From an uncultured Armatimonadota bacterium (GTDB lineage Bacteria > Armatimonadota > Fimbriimonadia > Fimbriimonadales > Fimbriimonadaceae), in assembly GCA_903927345.1 (NCBI GenBank), contig CAIYMO010000042.1, positions 62,001 to 126,000 of the forward strand: a DNA stretch of 64,000 bases. The letters are read 5' to 3'. Positions 46,282 to 62,875 of this stretch are shown here, one piece after another. The translations under genes were made by a program, and so were the position numbers. Numbering within the stretch: position 1 is the first letter of the stretch; the number at the start of each line of letters is the position of its first letter. The notes beneath the pieces were generated by a model. That model was not told the origin of the DNA. It did not search any database and worked only from the letters and a program-made list of their open reading frames with translations.

Positions 46282-47934
46282 ATGCTTCCCTTCATTGCCG
46301 CGCTTGCCATGAAACCATCCATCACGCCCCTCATCGAACAGTACCAAGCCGACCTCGGCAGCCTCGAGCGGTTCTACAAAGTTGAAATCTCCGAGGAGAG
46401 GAATAATCGGTTCAGAGGCTTCTATTGGGACAACGTCAAGGTCCTCATCCGGCAAGACTTTGATGCTCTCGACCAGGGCGAAAAGGTCGACTACCTCCTC
46501 TTCAAAAACCACCTCGAACGAAGCATCGCCCAGCTCGACGCGTTTGAGAAGCAGATCGAAGAAACCAAGCCGTTTCTTCCTTTCGCCAACGATCTCATCA
46601 AGCTCGGCCAAGACCAGCGGCGCAGTAACCCGATCAAGCCCCAGCTCGCCGCCGCAACCCTCGCACGCATCGAAACCGACCTCCCCAAACTCAAACAAGC
46701 TCTCGAAGCCAAGAAGAACAACGACAAATTCGCCGCCTTCCGGAGCGCCCGCTTCAACGACCAACTCCTGCGCAACCTCGCGGAGTGGTACCGGTTCTAC
46801 AACACTTACGATCCTCAATTCGGCTGGTGGGTCACCGAGCCCTACAACCGCACTTCCAAGGCTCTCCAAGAGTTCAGCACCTTTCTTAAAGAACGAATCT
46901 GCGGCCTAAAGCCCGGCGACAACAGCCCCATCGTCGGCGACCCAATCGGCCGCCAAGCCCTCCTCAACGAGCTCAAATACGAGATGATCCCCTACACCCC
47001 AGAGGAGCTCATCGACATCGCCAACAAGCAGTACACCTGGTGCGAAACCGAGATGAAGAAGGCCGCCAAAGAGATGGGCTACGATGACTGGCACCAAGCC
47101 CTCGAAAAGGTCAAACAAGACTACGTCCAACCCGGCGACCAGCCCCAGATGATCCGCGACCTGGCTGAAGAAGCCATCAAATATGTCGAAGACAACGACC
47201 TCGTCACGGTCCCCCAACTCGCCAAAGAGACCTGGCGAATGACCATGATGCCCCGCGAGCAGCAAAAGGTCAGCCCCTTTTTCCTCGGCGGCGAACAGAT
47301 CATGGTCAGCTTCCCCACCGCCGAAATGGAGCACCAAGAAAAGCTCATGAGCCTGCGCGCAAACAACATCCACTTCGCGCGCGCAACTGTCCACCACGAG
47401 CTGATCCCCGGCCACCACCTCCAGCAGTTCTACGAAAACCGCTTCAACCCCCAGCGCCAGCTCTTCTACACCCCCTTCTGGGCCGAAGGCAACGCCCTCT
47501 ACTACGAGTTCCTCTTCTGGGACATGGGCTTCCCCAAGACTCCGCAAAACAAGGTCGGCATGCTCTTCTGGCGCATGCACCGCTGCGCCCGAATCATCTT
47601 CTCTCTGTCGTTCCACCTCAAAAAGATGACCGCCGAAGAGTGCGTCAACATGCTGGTCGAAAAAGTCGGCCACGAACGCGCCTCCGCCGAAGGCGAAGTC
47701 CGCCGCTCATTCGGAGGCGGCTACTCGCCGCTGTACCAAATCAGCTACATGATCGGCGCCCTCCAACTCTGGTCGCTCCGGCACGAGCTGGTCGATAGCG
47801 GGAAGATGAAACAGAAGGAGTTCCACGACCAAGTCTTCCAGCAAAACAGCATCCCCATCGAAATGACAAGGGCGCTGCTAACGGATCAGCCGCTGAAGCC
47901 GGACTTTAAGTCGAGTTGGCGGTTCGCGCAGTAG
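46282..47934 (+). CDS. DUF885 family metallopeptidase-like protein
   Basis: A 550-residue protein of the DUF885 family. The key motif is HHELIPGHHLQQFY (about residues 371-384), the HExxPGHH metal-binding pattern of this group. Flanking blocks are GGEQIMVSFPTAEMEHQEKLMSL and TPFWAEGNALYYEFLFWDMGF, with RRSFGGGYSPLYQISYMIGA near the end. Members are predicted zinc peptidases of uncertain substrate. The N-terminus is only slightly hydrophobic, so export is doubtful. TAACAT lies 10 nt before the ATG. Confidence 0.92.
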   Translation: MLPFIAALAMKPSITPLIEQYQADLGSLERFYKVEISEERNNRFRGFYWDNVKVLIRQDFDALDQGEKVDYLLFKNHLERSIAQLDAFEKQIEETKPFLPFANDLIKLGQDQRRSNPIKPQLAAATLARIETDLPKLKQALEAKKNNDKFAAFRSARFNDQLLRNLAEWYRFYNTYDPQFGWWVTEPYNRTSKALQEFSTFLKERICGLKPGDNSPIVGDPIGRQALLNELKYEMIPYTPEELIDIANKQYTWCETEMKKAAKEMGYDDWHQALEKVKQDYVQPGDQPQMIRDLAEEAIKYVEDNDLVTVPQLAKETWRMTMMPREQQKVSPFFLGGEQIMVSFPTAEMEHQEKLMSLRANNIHFARATVHHELIPGHHLQQFYENRFNPQRQLFYTPFWAEGNALYYEFLFWDMGFPKTPQNKVGMLFWRMHRCARIIFSLSFHLKKMTAEECVNMLVEKVGHERASAEGEVRRSFGGGYSPLYQISYMIGALQLWSLRHELVDSGKMKQKEFHDQVFQQNSIPIEMTRALLTDQPLKPDFKSSWRFAQ

Positions 47935-48033
47935 TTTGAAGTAGATTTGCGAGCTGTGCTCCTATTGCTCAGAGTCCACCGATGTTAGGGCTTGCTATTG
48001 CACGTCAACTTTTTTATCTTCCTCATCGGGATC

Positions 48034-48061
48034 TTGCTTCGCCAGGTCCAGCAGGTACTAT
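48034..48061 (+). promoter_or_regulatory. promoter of the GHKL-methyltransferase operon
   Basis: TTGCTT (48034-48039) and TACTAT (48056-48061) are 16 bp apart. The -10 ends 6 nt before the ATG of the first gene, implying a leaderless transcript. Base composition here is A/T-rich relative to the neighbouring operons. Confidence 0.5.
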
Positions 48062-48067
48062 ATTTTA

Positions 48068-49834
48068 ATGAGCACAGGCGTAGAGACAGCAAACTACAGC
48101 TGGATCTTTGAGGAGCAACCGAAGACCGGTGGGGCTGGAACCGGAGCATATCTGCACCCCCTCTCGGCCTCAAATGACCCTTCAGGACGACTGGCCCGCG
48201 AAGCAATTCAAAACAGTCGAGATGCTCGCATCGCAGAAGATTCTCCAGTTAGCGTCTCATTTACTTTTAAGAAGTGGCGAGAAGACGAAAAGCTCGCAAA
48301 ATTGTCCCTTGTATCAGCAGAAGAATTGGTACATGGTCACTCTGGACCTCAGCGCAATTCGCCGATCAAGCCCTTTCAAATTCCGGTTGACCCTGAACTA
48401 TCAGTACTGTTCTGCGAGGATTTCAACACCACCGGCCTTTCAGGCGATCACAAAAGCCAGATTGACTCTGCCTGGCGTAGCTATGTCCACAATGTCGGAG
48501 ACAGTGCGAAGGAAGACGGCGGTGGATCGTTTGGATTTGGCAAAAGTGTATTTCCAGCTCTTTCAAAGTGTGGACTCATAGCTATCTACTCTGTGTCCAA
48601 AGAGGAGGGAGCCAGATTTACGTGCGTTAACTTCCAGTCGAAATTTGAAAGGGCCGGTCAAGTTTTCACAGGTAGAGGATGGCTAGGCGCAGATGATGAC
48701 GGATATGTGCGCCCGATTAGTGGTAAAGCCGCTGAGCAACTCGCCGCTGAATTGGGTTTTGAGAGGAGATCAGAGACAGGACTTTCTGTGATGATCGTTG
48801 ATCCACATGTTGACGAAAGCGCGCTTATTGAAGGCGTGATGACTCACTGGTGGCCAGCGATTGAAGATCAGGTCCTACGTGTGAAGGTGAATTTGAGTAA
48901 CGGCGAGACACGCGTACCAAACCCGAAGTCTAGACCGGACTTGCGCCCCTACATTCGTGCTTTCCGGCTTGCCACCGGTGCCGTTGAAGCCACCTCCGAC
49001 CAAGAACTACATCATTTTTTCCGCAAGCACAGGATGGGGACCATTGGCGCAGTAGCGGCCAATGAGCTAACTCCGGATGAAGAAATCCCGGCTAAAGTTC
49101 CCCAAAACTGTATCGCACTCATTCGGGGTTCTCGAATGGTAGTGGCGTACATGCAAGGGTCAAGCAGAAGTACCGTTGACTTTCACGCGGTATTCGTTGC
49201 GGATCCATCCACGGAGGAGATTTTCCGAATGGCCGAACCCCCTTCGCATGATCGATGGGAAGATGACCCCCGGCTGGACAGTCTCGATGATCCTGTTTTT
49301 GCCCGGCACATAATTGCCAGTTACAAGAACGAGTTGAAGCAGCGACTTAAGCTGTGGCTCGGTCCGCTTAGACCCAAACTTGAGCAATCATTTGACCGCA
49401 TCCCTGAGCTCGACTCAATCTTGGCGAAACACTTGACGTCCAAAAAGTCAGGTCCACCGGTTGGGCCAACCAAGGCTACGTCTCCTTTGCGGTACTCAGT
49501 TATTCATTCGCCCATCATTGATTCTGGAGGACAGCGACAGACGATGATTGCCGCCGAGCTTTCGCTAGACGCCAACTACACTGGCAATTCGCTGAGCTTC
49601 AAAGCTCGACCGAAGTGTCATGCCCTCGTGGACCGTGCACTGGTAAAAGATTCAGAAGAAATAGGACTTTGTCGGTTTTCCGTCCAACCTGAGAGTGCGG
49701 TCAAATCAACTAACGGCTCTGAATATGTAATCGAAATAACGCATAACCAATCGTTATCGGTCGAAGCGGTGAGCAATACATTTGATCCAAATCTTATCGT
49801 TGAAATTGAACTGAACCTGGAGAGTCTAGATTAA
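48068..49834 (+). CDS. GHKL-type ATPase (MutL/MORC/Hsp90-like), defence-associated candidate
   Basis: A 588-residue protein with a GHKL ATP-binding domain. The N-box is RLAREAIQNSRDAR (Glu45, Asn49, Asp52), the G1 motif is in FCEDFNTTGL (Asp118 to Gly123), and the G2/lid glycines are GGGSFGFGKS (151-160). This spacing is as in MutL, MORC and Hsp90. Residues about 250-450 look like the S5-type transducer region; the C-terminal 130 residues are beta-rich and unknown. It is the first of four tightly linked genes and its stop overlaps the next start. ATP-driven dimerisation would suit a DNA-sensing or clamp role. The composition is more A/T-rich than neighbouring operons, suggesting transfer. Confidence 0.8.
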   Translation: MSTGVETANYSWIFEEQPKTGGAGTGAYLHPLSASNDPSGRLAREAIQNSRDARIAEDSPVSVSFTFKKWREDEKLAKLSLVSAEELVHGHSGPQRNSPIKPFQIPVDPELSVLFCEDFNTTGLSGDHKSQIDSAWRSYVHNVGDSAKEDGGGSFGFGKSVFPALSKCGLIAIYSVSKEEGARFTCVNFQSKFERAGQVFTGRGWLGADDDGYVRPISGKAAEQLAAELGFERRSETGLSVMIVDPHVDESALIEGVMTHWWPAIEDQVLRVKVNLSNGETRVPNPKSRPDLRPYIRAFRLATGAVEATSDQELHHFFRKHRMGTIGAVAANELTPDEEIPAKVPQNCIALIRGSRMVVAYMQGSSRSTVDFHAVFVADPSTEEIFRMAEPPSHDRWEDDPRLDSLDDPVFARHIIASYKNELKQRLKLWLGPLRPKLEQSFDRIPELDSILAKHLTSKKSGPPVGPTKATSPLRYSVIHSPIIDSGGQRQTMIAAELSLDANYTGNSLSFKARPKCHALVDRALVKDSEEIGLCRFSVQPESAVKSTNGSEYVIEITHNQSLSVEAVSNTFDPNLIVEIELNLESLD

Positions 49835-50652
49835 TGTGGAAACTATCTGTCCCTCGCCGAGTGGCACCGTTTGAACGGTTGGATTCGGCGTTTGCCAATG
49901 CAACATTACGCCTTGGTGAGCAAAAAATTACCGCCGAAGATTCGGACGCACTGCACTTGAACCCCACCGAACAACAATCTGGGCTGCCACTGACAATCAA
50001 CTTTGACGCGACAACCATCGATTTCCAAGAAGAGGTGTATCTCATCGTAACCGTGATCCCTCAGTTTTTGAAGCGTCAGGATGTGATTTTCCGGGAGGTA
50101 CTCAGAAATCAAGTCTATGATATTGAGGTTCCTCGAAGCTTAATCAACTTATATGGCGGCCTGACTGGACTGGAAGTAACGCTAACTTTTTGCCAGGAAC
50201 TGGGAACTCCTCATTTAGCAATAGGTCGTCGAACTTTTCGAGTCTTAGCCGAAAACGGCGGATACTCAATGTGTCCCACTTGGATGTCAGATTCCAAGTG
50301 GAAAAGCGTAGGATTACCTGCCGGGACTGCTTGGGCATTGGCGCAACCGGTTGACTTCTCTCTAACTACCGAAGAGTTGTCAATCTGGGTCCACGAGGAC
50401 TTGCAGCAACGCCTTTACCATGGGGACCCTACTGTAAGGGCAACTCTAGCCAAGTCTATGGCAGTTGACATTTACTTTGAGCTGTTAATGACTTACGCTT
50501 TAGAAGCAGTTGAAGAAGAGGTGGGGACCGACAATTCTCTCGGAGGGGCTGTTCGAAACCTTGCAGCCAAGTTGGATATTAACCTGAGGAAGCCGCTAGA
50601 GAACATGTCACAGACGAGAGCAGCCTTGCAGGCGCTTGTGGAGATCGCATAA
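49834..50652 (+). CDS. unknown protein of the GHKL-methyltransferase operon
   Basis: A 272-residue protein I do not recognise. The first 160 residues have a beta-strand pattern (TINFDATTIDFQEEVYLIVTVIP, VTLTFCQELGTPHLAIGRRTFRVLA); the last 80 are helical (LAKSMAVDIYFELLMTYALEAVEEEV). No catalytic motif or nuclease signature is visible. It overlaps both neighbours by one base (TAATG), so it is surely co-translated. It may be an adaptor between the ATPase and the DUF6339-like protein; this is a guess. Confidence 0.75.
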   Translation: MWKLSVPRRVAPFERLDSAFANATLRLGEQKITAEDSDALHLNPTEQQSGLPLTINFDATTIDFQEEVYLIVTVIPQFLKRQDVIFREVLRNQVYDIEVPRSLINLYGGLTGLEVTLTFCQELGTPHLAIGRRTFRVLAENGGYSMCPTWMSDSKWKSVGLPAGTAWALAQPVDFSLTTEELSIWVHEDLQQRLYHGDPTVRATLAKSMAVDIYFELLMTYALEAVEEEVGTDNSLGGAVRNLAAKLDINLRKPLENMSQTRAALQALVEIA

Positions 50653-51407
50653 TGGAAGTAATTAGCTTCGCTAAAGGTAAAGAGTGGTACATGGACGCCT
50701 CGCTTGGTCATCCCAGAGAGACCAGTGAGTACTGCACTAAGGTTCAGATTGGTGATGAAGTTGATACGGACTTAATACGAGATGTCGCGGATCACTTGCT
50801 CGATTCCATCAAGGAGGTTGACGGAAAAAACAAAGGGGCTTTTAACGGCTTTGAAGCCGAAGCCGCGATCATCTTGCACCGTGAGCTCAACCTTCCACCC
50901 AAAGTCTATTCCGACCGAAGATTTTGGATTTGGTTGAGCATCAATTATTTCAGGGAGATAATTGAAATCCGACACCCGGCCAAAACGACTGAAGAATCAT
51001 CAAACAAAGTCGTCAACCTATCATTGGAAGGGAATTATGGGCTGGCTGGAGCATGGGAAGGGCTCGCGTTTCGGCTTTGGTCCCGGGCGGCCTATGCGTT
51101 TGATCCTTCGTTCGACCCCGATCCATATTATCATGCGAAACTCGGCACCGGAGATATGTGGCGTTCTCACATATTCCGTGTTGACCATGGCTCCTGCGTT
51201 CAACTGAGCCGCGCGTTTTTGCGCGAAGCTTACGATGAAAAGCTTAGTAAATCATCTGCGCCACTCAATAAAGACATTGTGAGAGCGGTAGCCAAACGTC
51301 TTCGGAGACATCACGCCCGATTGTCATTTGAGATTTTCAACCAAGCAGAAGCTGAACGGTTCGTACGCTCAGAGATTGAGAGTGTTCGATCCGGTACTCT
51401 GAACTAA
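50652..51407 (+). CDS. DUF6339-like protein
   Basis: A 251-residue protein. The block RRFWIWLSINYFREIIEIRH, then AWEGLAFRLWSRAAYAFDPSFDPDPYYHAKLGTGDMWRSHIFRVDHGSCVQLSRAFLREA, is similar in outline to DUF6339 proteins, an assignment I hold only moderately. No nuclease motif is evident, though several charged, conserved-looking positions (Asp, Arg, His) could be catalytic. It is the third gene of the operon, 4 bases before the methyltransferase. Such proteins have been seen in predicted defence islands with MutL-like ATPases. Confidence 0.65.
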   Translation: MEVISFAKGKEWYMDASLGHPRETSEYCTKVQIGDEVDTDLIRDVADHLLDSIKEVDGKNKGAFNGFEAEAAIILHRELNLPPKVYSDRRFWIWLSINYFREIIEIRHPAKTTEESSNKVVNLSLEGNYGLAGAWEGLAFRLWSRAAYAFDPSFDPDPYYHAKLGTGDMWRSHIFRVDHGSCVQLSRAFLREAYDEKLSKSSAPLNKDIVRAVAKRLRRHHARLSFEIFNQAEAERFVRSEIESVRSGTLN

Positions 51408-51411
51408 CTCT

Positions 51412-52587
51412 ATGGTCAGTTTTAGTAGGATGCCGGTCGACTCATTATCTCTGAGAGTCAACCGGCTTCCGCGTGCGGCCCTTGGGTCTCCGGAACTTTC
51501 TATCGTCGACATGTACTGCGGTGCTGGTGGGTTGAGTCTGGGCTCTCTCTATGCCGCCGTTGGCCTAGGGTACAAGCCTCGATTTGCGCTCGCTGCTGAC
51601 CGCGACACTGAAGCGCTCGGCGTTTATTGTCGAAATTTGCGACCCGAAAGAACATCCACAGAAGACGCTGGCATGGTTGTGGACTATCAATTGGATCAGT
51701 TGGATTCGCGCCCTATCTTTGCTTACCCTCCCACGCTATTACCCGGTGCGTTGGCCGACATACCTAACATTGATCTCTTCTTAGCCGGTCCCCCTTGTCA
51801 AGGTCACTCCAATTTAAACAACCATACCCGTCGTGATGATCCCAGAAACCAAAGTTACCTGGCCACGGCAGCCACCGCCATTGCCGCTGGGGCGCGGGCC
51901 GTCGTCATTGAAAATGTGAGAGAGGCAATCGCAGCAAAAGGCGATCCTGTTGGAACCTCAGTGCGGTTGTTTGAGGACGCCGGATATCACGTTCAGCTCG
52001 TGGTACTTGATGCTTCAGAGTACGGCGTGGCCCAGACTCGAAAGCGTGGCTTTCTAATCGCTACGAAGTCCCAAGCTGAATCCGTCGCCAATGTCGCGGC
52101 AACAATGCGCAGGCCCGTTGCATCTGCACTCTCGGTAATTGACGACCTGCTTGATGTTGACTCTCAAAACCCATTTGATCGTCCCTCCACCCCCGGGCAA
52201 GAAACCCAAGCCCGAATAAATTACTTGTTCGACAACGATCTTTATGAGCTTCCTGACAGTCAGCGCCCTGATTGCCATAAGGCAGGTAATACCTACAAAA
52301 GTGTCTACGGCAGAATCCAACCTAGTTCACCTTCGGGAACCATCACCCAGGGCTTTCTAACTATGGGGCGGGGCCGCTTTGTACACCCGACAAGACGACG
52401 ATGCCTCACCCCACATGAAGCAGCGAGAATTCAGTGTTTTCCGGATGCGTACCAGTTTGTCGGCACCAGTGGCGAAGTCCTTTCGCACCGTGCACTTTCG
52501 AAGCTAATTGGGAACGCAGTTCCACCAAGGCTTGGAGAATTGGCTTGCCGTGTGGCACTAAGCTCTCTCAACCTTAGTAACGGCTAG
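51412..52587 (+). CDS. DNA (cytosine-5) methyltransferase
   Basis: A 391-residue C5-cytosine methyltransferase. Motif I is VDMYCGAGGLSLGS, motif IV is GPPCQGHS with the catalytic Cys129, motif VI is VIENVREA, motif VIII is AQTRKRGF and motif X is IGNAVPPRLGE, in the standard order. The target recognition region lies between VIII and IX (about residues 215-310). Motif IV has His in place of the usual Phe (PCQ-GHS), as in a subset of these enzymes. It is the last gene of the four-gene operon and no restriction enzyme is visible, so it would protect self DNA while another subunit attacks or senses unmodified DNA. Confidence 0.93.
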   Translation: MVSFSRMPVDSLSLRVNRLPRAALGSPELSIVDMYCGAGGLSLGSLYAAVGLGYKPRFALAADRDTEALGVYCRNLRPERTSTEDAGMVVDYQLDQLDSRPIFAYPPTLLPGALADIPNIDLFLAGPPCQGHSNLNNHTRRDDPRNQSYLATAATAIAAGARAVVIENVREAIAAKGDPVGTSVRLFEDAGYHVQLVVLDASEYGVAQTRKRGFLIATKSQAESVANVAATMRRPVASALSVIDDLLDVDSQNPFDRPSTPGQETQARINYLFDNDLYELPDSQRPDCHKAGNTYKSVYGRIQPSSPSGTITQGFLTMGRGRFVHPTRRRCLTPHEAARIQCFPDAYQFVGTSGEVLSHRALSKLIGNAVPPRLGELACRVALSSLNLSNG

Positions 52588-52679
52588 CTTCGTTCTGAAC
52601 TTGGATGTAAATCCTCTTTCGATGAGGTGCGCCGCACAAGACAATAGTGGAGCCGGCGGGTGGAAATCCGCAGATCCAT
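52588..52679. other. intergenic region after the methyltransferase gene
   Basis: Ninety-two bases with no gene. A weak hairpin (CCTC...GAGG) is present, but I see no strong terminator before the repeat that begins at 52680. Confidence 0.3.
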
Positions 52680-61537: not shown

Positions 61538-62875
61538 CCAGGACCTAGCCGATTCCACGTTCGTTACGTTGCCTTCCAGTACTGCTTCGACGAGCCGAGT
61601 CTTCCACTCTCCGACCGCCTTGCCGGGTTCTAGCTGGAGCAATTGCATGATCTCTTCACCGGAAAGCGGACTTTCAAGTGACTCAACAGGCGTCTCGATT
61701 AACGCCTGTGCCACGCGTTGGCGAAATTCGGAAAGCGGGGTCGGATCCTTGTGCCCGAGTCGGTCCGCCTCACACAGGTCTAGAAATCGTTCGAGTTGGT
61801 TGCCCATGTCCCGAATCAATCGACGGATCGCCGCCTTGCCGAACTGATTCGCAGAACTCAGCCGCATATGGTTCTCGACCAGGAAGGCAACTTCTTCGGA
61901 CATGTCGTTGGGGACCTTCAAGCGTTTCAACGCCAGCCTTGCAACCTTGGCTCCTTCGTGGTCATGTCCATAAAAGTGGACCTCTCCAGGTTCGGGTTCC
62001 GTTCGGGTTTGGGGTTTTGCGACGTCGTGAAACAGAGACGCTAGGACGGTGACGAGATCAACAGGCTCTGACCGACGAGCTGCCAGCGCATGAACATTCC
62101 CTACCACCGCACGCGTGTGGTCCCAGGCGTCTAAGTGGTGCCACTTCCCTTGCTCACAACCTTTGAGGGAGATGAACTCGGGGAGGAACATTTGAAGCAA
62201 TCCAAGTTCTCGAAGGTCCTCGAGAGCAGCTTCTGCAGCGGGGTGGAGCATCATCTTGAATAGCTCATCCCGAATACGCTCGGCTGAAATGATTTCAAGC
62301 CTTGGCGCGGATTTTCGGATAGCCTCTGCTAATCCGTCAGCATACGAAAATCCAAAACGGTGCCGAAATCTGACGGCGCGAAGCATTCTCAACGGATCAT
62401 CGTGGAACGTTTTTCGGGGTTCAAGGGGGGTCCGAAGCACACCGGCTTGTAGGTCAGACACACCAGCCCCAAGCGGGTCAACCAACGACCAATCCGAGAG
62501 GGAGCGCATGAGTGTATTGACCGTAAAGTCTCTTCGCTCTGCATCATCGCGCAGCGTTCCCGGTTCGACGCTAGGTTTGCGAGATCGAGAGGCGTATGAC
62601 TCTTTGCGAGTACGCACAACCTCAATTTTCTGCCCGCAGATCGAGATCATTGCGGTTCCAAACCGCTCGTAAACTACCGGGTAGAAGTCACAGACCCCTC
62701 GATCCCAGAGCAGTTGAACCAGTGTCGCTGAGGGCCCCGTCGTCACCAAATCAAGATCATCCGAACCGGGAAGGCCGAGGATTTCGTCGCGGACCGCACC
62801 TCCCACCAAAAAGACGTCGCCCTCGAACGGCGTTCCGACGATACACGACCGGACAATTTCGAGGGCGGGATGCAT
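61514..62875 (-). CDS. cca: CCA-adding enzyme/poly(A) polymerase family, HD domain
   Basis: A 453-residue class II nucleotidyltransferase. The active-site block is VFLVGGAVRDEILGLPGSDDLDLVT with the GGxVRD and DxD motifs. RRDFTVNTLM and the ARG/arginine-rich RMLRAVRFRHRFGF follow. A C-terminal HD domain (LFHDVAKPQTRT, FYGHDHEGA) resembles the HD form of bacterial CCA enzymes. It should add or repair tRNA 3' CCA ends, although poly(A) polymerase activity cannot be excluded. The start at 62875 lies 2 bases after the NYN gene stop; the TTG at 62881 overlaps it. Confidence 0.9.
   Translation of the reverse strand: MHPALEIVRSCIVGTPFEGDVFLVGGAVRDEILGLPGSDDLDLVTTGPSATLVQLLWDRGVCDFYPVVYERFGTAMISICGQKIEVVRTRKESYASRSRKPSVEPGTLRDDAERRDFTVNTLMRSLSDWSLVDPLGAGVSDLQAGVLRTPLEPRKTFHDDPLRMLRAVRFRHRFGFSYADGLAEAIRKSAPRLEIISAERIRDELFKMMLHPAAEAALEDLRELGLLQMFLPEFISLKGCEQGKWHHLDAWDHTRAVVGNVHALAARRSEPVDLVTVLASLFHDVAKPQTRTEPEPGEVHFYGHDHEGAKVARLALKRLKVPNDMSEEVAFLVENHMRLSSANQFGKAAIRRLIRDMGNQLERFLDLCEADRLGHKDPTPLSEFRQRVAQALIETPVESLESPLSGEEIMQLLQLEPGKAVGEWKTRLVEAVLEGNVTNVESARSWLLEQSQQ

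Follow-up and report, generated by a model that had tools for sequence, protein, structure and literature searches.

The 64,000-nucleotide stretch of DNA analyzed here (the window; positions 62,001 to 126,000 of contig CAIYMO010000042.1, GenBank assembly GCA_903927345.1, from an uncultured Fimbriimonadaceae bacterium of the phylum Armatimonadota) carries a cassette of four closely packed genes, A to D. The locus raises the question of whether a GHKL ATPase, two proteins without recognized activity and a C5-cytosine methyltransferase can together form a defense system that has neither nuclease nor helicase, and whether such a system has been described. Comparison with related loci indicates that the cassette is a genuine, recurrent and unnamed nuclease- and helicase-free variant of a predicted defense family. 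A-B-C-D is very probably an antiviral unit exchanged among several phyla, with its role in defense predicted from gene content and context. The genes and the segment that contains them are as follows.

48068-49834, + strand: gene A, predicted GHKL/S5-type ATPase of the paraMORC2 family (PADLOC PDC-M33A), 588 amino acids (PADLOC search, motif conservation)
49834-50652, + strand: gene B, 272 amino acids, predicted Ig-like beta-sandwich followed by C-terminal helices (structural model; PDC-M33B counterpart by position)
50652-51407, + strand: gene C, DUF6339 protein (PDC-M33C), 251 amino acids, predicted all-alpha (Pfam, PADLOC, structural model)
51412-52587, + strand: gene D, predicted C5-cytosine DNA methyltransferase, 391 amino acids, catalytic Cys129 (Pfam, tree clade)
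47935-52651, no strand: acquired segment with A-B-C-D, between a DUF885 gene and the downstream region (break in homology to genome G090, G+C content)

The four open reading frames reported in a first-pass annotation of the window were all recovered at the same positions, and all are intact. A and B overlap by 1 bp, as do B and C, and C and D are separated by 4 bp. These overlaps suggest co-transcription of the four genes. The shared promoter that had been proposed was not found: a consensus scan of the 133 bp before A detected no promoter-like site, and matches in the region were no better than those in shuffled sequence.

Relatives were sought by scanning an alignment of A against 84,980 genomes, which returned 441; the best 80 were kept and supplemented with ten plasmid records and one viral contig. 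A single-protein search of genome contigs with A and a search of plasmids with DUF6339 alone gave no match, and an alignment of A with Bacillota members yielded no usable stretch. Of 100 A genes, from bacteria and archaea, 90 are immediately followed by B and C, and C was confirmed by hidden Markov model in 89; the A genes without contiguous B-C lie mostly at contig ends or in broken frames. Architectures were defined by neighbor clustering and Pfam assignment. In the full form, a Z1 helicase and a DUF4420 PD-(D/E)XK protein precede A-B-C, a C5 methyltransferase lies close by, frequently accompanied by Vsr, and Z1 and/or DUF4420 lie directly upstream of A-B-C in 40 of 91 sets. The compact form, A-B-C followed by a C5 methyltransferase, has neither Z1 nor DUF4420 and was assigned by script to 26 of the 91 sets. 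Two Prochlorococcus sets (L059 and L079) were removed from these as another branch in the A tree, leaving 24 compact loci including that of the window, in which the gap between C and D ranges from -4 to +27 bp. The gene order that the first-pass annotation treated as a unit thus recurs in 23 further loci, in which all four genes co-evolve, and the arrangement is therefore not due to chance.

Full loci (support 100), haloarchaeal loci (98) and 23 compact loci (97) form separate groups in the A tree. The methyltransferases of the compact loci, including D, fall in one clade (support 100) with main subgroups that match those of A. Distances between A and the other three proteins are tightly correlated among compact loci (r = 0.964 for the methyltransferase, 0.968 for B and 0.960 for C), whereas in full loci the correlation is retained for A and B (0.915) and falls to 0.413 for A and the methyltransferase. 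These values indicate that the methyltransferase is locked to the core in compact systems and swapped in full ones. Hosts of the compact form belong to at least five phyla (Pseudomonadota, Acidobacteriota, Actinomycetota, Gemmatimonadota and the phylum of the window); a locus from a “Verrucomicrobia” bin (L031) differs very little from alphaproteobacterial loci, may have been binned wrongly and was not counted as a phylum. In the closely related loci L022 and L024, the ratio of nonsynonymous to synonymous substitution rates is 0.05 to 0.17 across the four genes, a sign of purifying selection on each of them.

Two simpler accounts of the cassette were rejected. If the window held a full system that had decayed by loss of Z1 and DUF4420, 23 other loci would not share its form; this account is also contradicted by the placement of the two forms on separate A branches and by the single clade of compact methyltransferases that tracks A. 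A chance association of D with the other genes is incompatible with the same recurrence, with the methyltransferase clade and with its co-evolution with A. The trees and gene orders therefore indicate that the compact form is a lineage for which the lack of Z1 and DUF4420 is a trait and not a result of decay.

The lack of any recognized nuclease or helicase gene in the unit, noted at first pass, holds beyond the cassette. Searches of the entire genome to which the window belongs detected no Z1, DUF4420 or Vsr, each with a positive control (a control genome for Z1, and genome G291 at 1.9e-52 for DUF4420). None of the four proteins matched AIPR in Pfam or PADLOC. No nuclease family or fold was found in A, B or C by profiles, or in B and C by model comparisons, and no known toxin domain was found in any cassette protein.

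A matches PADLOC PDC-M33A (E = 5.8e-28) and has no Pfam match. Its N-box (E45/N49/D52), G1 (D118-T-x-G123) and G2 (G152-G-x-x-G-x-G-K159) motifs vary hardly or not at all among 46 relatives, in agreement with the earlier report of intact Glu45, Asn49, G1 and G2. An ExxxH motif in the later part of the S5 domain is the defining feature of the paraMORC2 family (Iyer, Abhiman and Aravind 2008, PMC2292703). The motif is present in A as E390-PPS-H394, with E and H invariant in 46 of 46 aligned rows, and an invariant R353 falls where the S5-fold domain is expected. Because both ExxxH and the ATP motifs are invariant in the aligned relatives, A is assigned to the paraMORC2 GHKL ATPases on the basis of its sequence.

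D matches Pfam PF00145 (E = 4.6e-40). The catalytic Cys129 recognized at first pass is present in GPPCQG, and the motifs are intact, as expected of a functional C5 DNA methyltransferase. D is the sole C5 methyltransferase of the genome.

B has no Pfam name, and the PADLOC search gave no match of the window protein to the PDC-M33B model, which fits Bacillota and prophage loci (L009, L012). The AlphaFold2 model, built from a 61-row alignment, has a beta-sandwich plus helices (predicted local distance difference test score [pLDDT], 81), and comparisons with Foldseek and VIA-align returned generic beta-sandwiches only (PDE-delta, RhoGDI and Ig; best Z, 8.3). B is homologous to the B protein of Z1-type (full) loci (hhalign, 97.3%; E = 2.5e-11), and profile comparison detected no direct homology to M33B-type B proteins of Bacillota (E = 0.17). 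A match to arginyl-tRNA synthetase was weak and short and was discarded. Sequence searches of the PDB gave no related entry for A, B or C.

C matches Pfam PF19866 (DUF6339) with E = 2.7e-9 (37.5 bits versus a gathering score of 23.2) and PADLOC PDC-M33C with 1.6e-5. The literature searched contains no mention of DUF6339. The AlphaFold2 model of C (60-row alignment) is all-alpha with a pLDDT of 91.7, and no significant PDB match was found with Foldseek or VIA-align, nothing exceeding Z 4.3; weak and short matches to NF1 and MJ0754 were discarded. No fold is assigned to the modeled B or C from these structural matches. Within the compact lineage, C has an invariant set (E68, W92, R107, R141, R145, R171-S-H173, R176, R211 and K215) that may serve to bind DNA or nucleotides or may be catalytic.

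These residues bear on the main rival explanation, an ordinary restriction-modification system in which C or the C-terminal part of A is a hidden nuclease, triggered by ATP-driven closure on unmethylated DNA, while D protects the host. The invariant polar and aromatic residues of compact C are more numerous than a scaffold would require, the full-type core acts alongside the DUF4420 nuclease, and related paraMORC3 proteins bear their own nuclease (PMC2292703; VcSduA, PMC12137116). However, C is all-alpha without a nuclease match in the PDB, its invariant set has many Arg and few acidic residues, which distinguishes it from PD-(D/E)XK or HNH sites, and full loci keep C despite possessing a separate nuclease. 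A hidden nuclease is, on balance, unlikely, though well within consideration.

One locus provides a view of the B-C junction. L028 (10001-13500) is about 96% identical in A and 93 to 97% identical in the first half of B to four near relatives (L027, L031, L035 and L036), versus 44 to 60% in the second half of B, 50 to 60% in the first half of C and 76 to 88% thereafter. This mosaic block, flanked by 76 to 100% identity on both sides, suggests that a single piece spanning the junction was exchanged once, in one lineage; a search for its donor found none. A specificity module would fit such an exchange, of which this is a single event.

The cassette is foreign to its genome and was acquired horizontally. 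Positions 47935-52651 have a G+C content of 50.6%, compared with a mean of 55.9% (standard deviation, 1.0; minimum, 52.5%) for other 4.7-kb stretches, and G+C at third codon positions is 0.49 to 0.51 in the cassette versus 0.80 in the upstream gene. The first-pass annotation had suggested transfer from three local G+C counts; these are exact (24, 24 and 33 of 60 bases), and the segment-wide values point to recent acquisition. A is absent from 19 of 19 congeners and occurs in 2 of 291 genomes of the phylum, the second with a trace only. Homology to the congener G090 ends at 47928, the end of the DUF885 gene, and restarts at 52652; no direct repeats were found at the insertion ends. This sister species carries a 1,366-amino-acid RHS-repeat gene and a small neighbor at the same site (L096 7881-11981, - strand), and the insertion site is different again in G092. 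With the RHS-repeat gene in this place in G090, the interval from the DUF885 gene to 52652 resembles a hotspot for cargo. Some other compact loci adjoin Dazbog, type II and type IV restriction genes, PDC-S36 or an integrase.

A second genome of the same family, G135, contains a truncated A and, after it, a C5 methyltransferase and Vsr of the compact clade, with B and C missing (L099 5807-9820, - strand). By analogy with decaying restriction-modification loci that leave an orphan methyltransferase, this locus is interpreted as a decayed copy that retained its methyltransferase. Such retention would be expected if losing the methyltransferase first were harmful, as in an abortive-infection or toxin-like module in which A-B-C harms the cell on sensing unmethylated or replicating phage DNA and D is the safety mark of a selfish addiction cassette. 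The sporadic and mobile distribution, and the methyltransferase always kept in compact loci, are in keeping with this explanation. The same pattern, however, is expected of any restriction-modification system, and none of the proteins has a known toxin domain, so that an abortive-infection module appears improbable.

Further arrangements of the core occur among its relatives. Haloarchaea have a third form, with two or three A-B-C sets per locus (L055, L068, L073, L082, L085, L091 and L093); most of these loci have C5 methyltransferases, an HhH-GPD glycosylase in place of Vsr, a 258-amino-acid methylase-like protein and a 508-amino-acid conserved protein. On plasmids of Halobaculum and Haloplanus (L007 1-15221 and L010 1-15220), A-B-C is preceded at a short distance by genes with helicase, Zn-binding and phospholipase D family annotations, a set that by annotation resembles the DISARM core. 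A viral-classed contig (L012 1-3434) holds the A-B-C triad without an adjacent methyltransferase. Six compact-type loci have a conserved small open reading frame (about 75 to 100 amino acids; MRDKRxRFVELGEARVxKA...) upstream of A, which is absent from the window; the copy tested had no Pfam match.

Small open reading frame before A: L019 9706-9981, L020 568-861, L022 9665-9982, L024 9689-9985, L040 9214-9492

Repair enzymes accompany members of the family, with Vsr in 17 of 26 compact-like loci and the HhH-GPD glycosylases in haloarchaeal ones. As A belongs to the same GHKL superfamily as MutL, these companions would be consistent with a non-defense role, in which A-B-C acts with D (and Vsr where present) as an epigenetic or repair module for mismatches or deaminated 5-methylcytosine. 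Vsr and the glycosylase are nevertheless explained by repair of deaminated 5-methylcytosine made by D, and Vsr is missing from the genome of the window. The sporadic spread within the phylum, the insertion hotspot and the defense-gene neighbors do not fit a repair module, which we regard as very improbable.

The explanation that best accounts for the evidence as a whole, and to which we give an even chance, is a compact nuclease-free branch in which D provides a self mark and A-B-C provides surveillance and a clamp. D would methylate a short cytosine-containing site in host DNA. A three-protein core, composed of the putative paraMORC2 ATPase (A), the beta-sandwich/helical protein (B) and the DUF6339 protein (C), would survey DNA and act in an ATP-dependent manner where the mark is missing. 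We infer, as the first-pass annotation did, that methylation is read by the ATPase. On unmarked DNA, ATP would make the GHKL dimer of A close around the DNA as a clamp or loop, in which B and C would be the parts that read DNA, and the clamped incoming DNA would be stalled in replication or transcription or exposed to host nucleases. In the full branch, the same core would instead feed the Z1 helicase and the DUF4420 nuclease. Because no nuclease was recognized, clamping or looping is the most likely action. Looping or clamping has been proposed for paraMORCs (PMC2292703), Caenorhabditis elegans MORC-1 has been reported to entrap DNA topologically (PMC8277788), and BREX, which operates without a nuclease, offers a parallel for the resulting block of replication or transcription (PMC9122589). 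In VcSduA, a distantly related GHKL-nuclease, an ATPase-dead mutant lost anti-phage activity (PMC12137116), which supports ATPase-gated action in the superfamily, although it is no test of this cassette.

Several observations weigh against this explanation. The window joins the compact group of the A tree with a support of only 79.6, and its cassette lies outside any defense island. The C-terminal 150 residues of A carry no assigned domain, and C, a well-modeled unmatched fold with an invariant polar set, could be an enzyme, in which case the term “nuclease-free” may be wrong. The proportions of the architectures are biased, as the 80 loci analyzed are those nearest to the A protein of the window among the 441 relatives.

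A more far-reaching version of the clamp explanation, put forward tentatively and considered unlikely, is that the compact lineage represents a distinct, self-sufficient methylation-guided immunity without nuclease or helicase, in which a MORC-type ATPase and its two partners would clamp or compact unmethylated DNA much as in eukaryotic MORC silencing, and the exchangeable B-C block would set target or trigger specificity. At 4.5 kb and four genes, the compact cassette shows in its smallest stable form a large family that has 441 ATPase relatives in one genome scan. With helicase and nuclease gone and the methyltransferase locked to the core, it offers a clean system in which to study the action of a bacterial MORC-type ATPase on DNA. 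The effect of such ATPases on DNA has been a question since their prediction in 2008 and is relevant to eukaryotic MORC silencing. DUF6339 also gains a testable function.

Among known and predicted systems, the cassette is closest in its proteins to PADLOC candidate PDC-M33 (PADLOC-DB 2.0.0), in which “PDC” denotes a phage defense candidate (PMC11514479). A and C match M33A and M33C and the order A-B-C is the same, whereas B has no M33B match and the methyltransferase matched none of the M33 models; PDC-M33 is itself only a candidate, and the literature searched does not mention it. ParaMORC2 proteins share the GHKL ATP motifs, ExxxH and neighborhoods with a C5 methyltransferase, Vsr, a helicase and a nuclease of the restriction endonuclease (RE) fold (PMC2292703). 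In the available part of that 2008 text, however, the family is not linked with B, DUF6339 or a four-gene lineage without helicase.

The “Type I” system predicted by Miller, Stern and Burstein in 2022 has a core of Z1, a PD-(D/E)XK protein and a cytosine methyltransferase (PMC9523054). The second of these is DUF4420, printed as DUF4220 in the paper. Its C5 methyltransferase, three uncharacterized genes and associated repair endonucleases recall the loci described here, and the full loci (Z1, DUF4420, A, B, C, C5 methyltransferase and Vsr) match the description; its three additional genes, which may correspond to A, B and C, fit the full loci in number and context. The cytosine methyltransferase of that core is present in the window (PF00145), while Z1 and PD-(D/E)XK are absent from its genome and from the whole compact branch. 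The full form also fits an island of Corynebacterium whose 2017 description mentions “three unclassified proteins” (PMC5379612). Likeness to BREX is by analogy only, in combining a methyltransferase and an ATPase without a nuclease; the other proteins differ, a C5 methyltransferase takes the place of PglX, and the cassette contains no BREX gene.

Mza (mzaABCDE) and the MutL-Z1-AIPR clusters are related through the full sister form, which shares Z1 (MzaC model) and DUF4420 (MzaD model); the window lacks Z1, DUF4420 and AIPR, and A matched no Mza model in the PADLOC search. The separation from Z1 clusters drawn by the first-pass annotation is correct for the window itself, which has neither Z1 nor AIPR, but not for the family, since the same triad follows Z1 and/or DUF4420 in 40 of 91 relatives. 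The description of the cassette as undescribed likewise needs narrowing: A and C match the PDC-M33 candidate, paraMORC2 has been recognized since 2008 and the sister form was predicted in 2022, whereas the compact variant is unnamed. Taken together, these comparisons place the window in a helicase- and nuclease-free branch of the Z1-cluster family, as judged from its predicted proteins.

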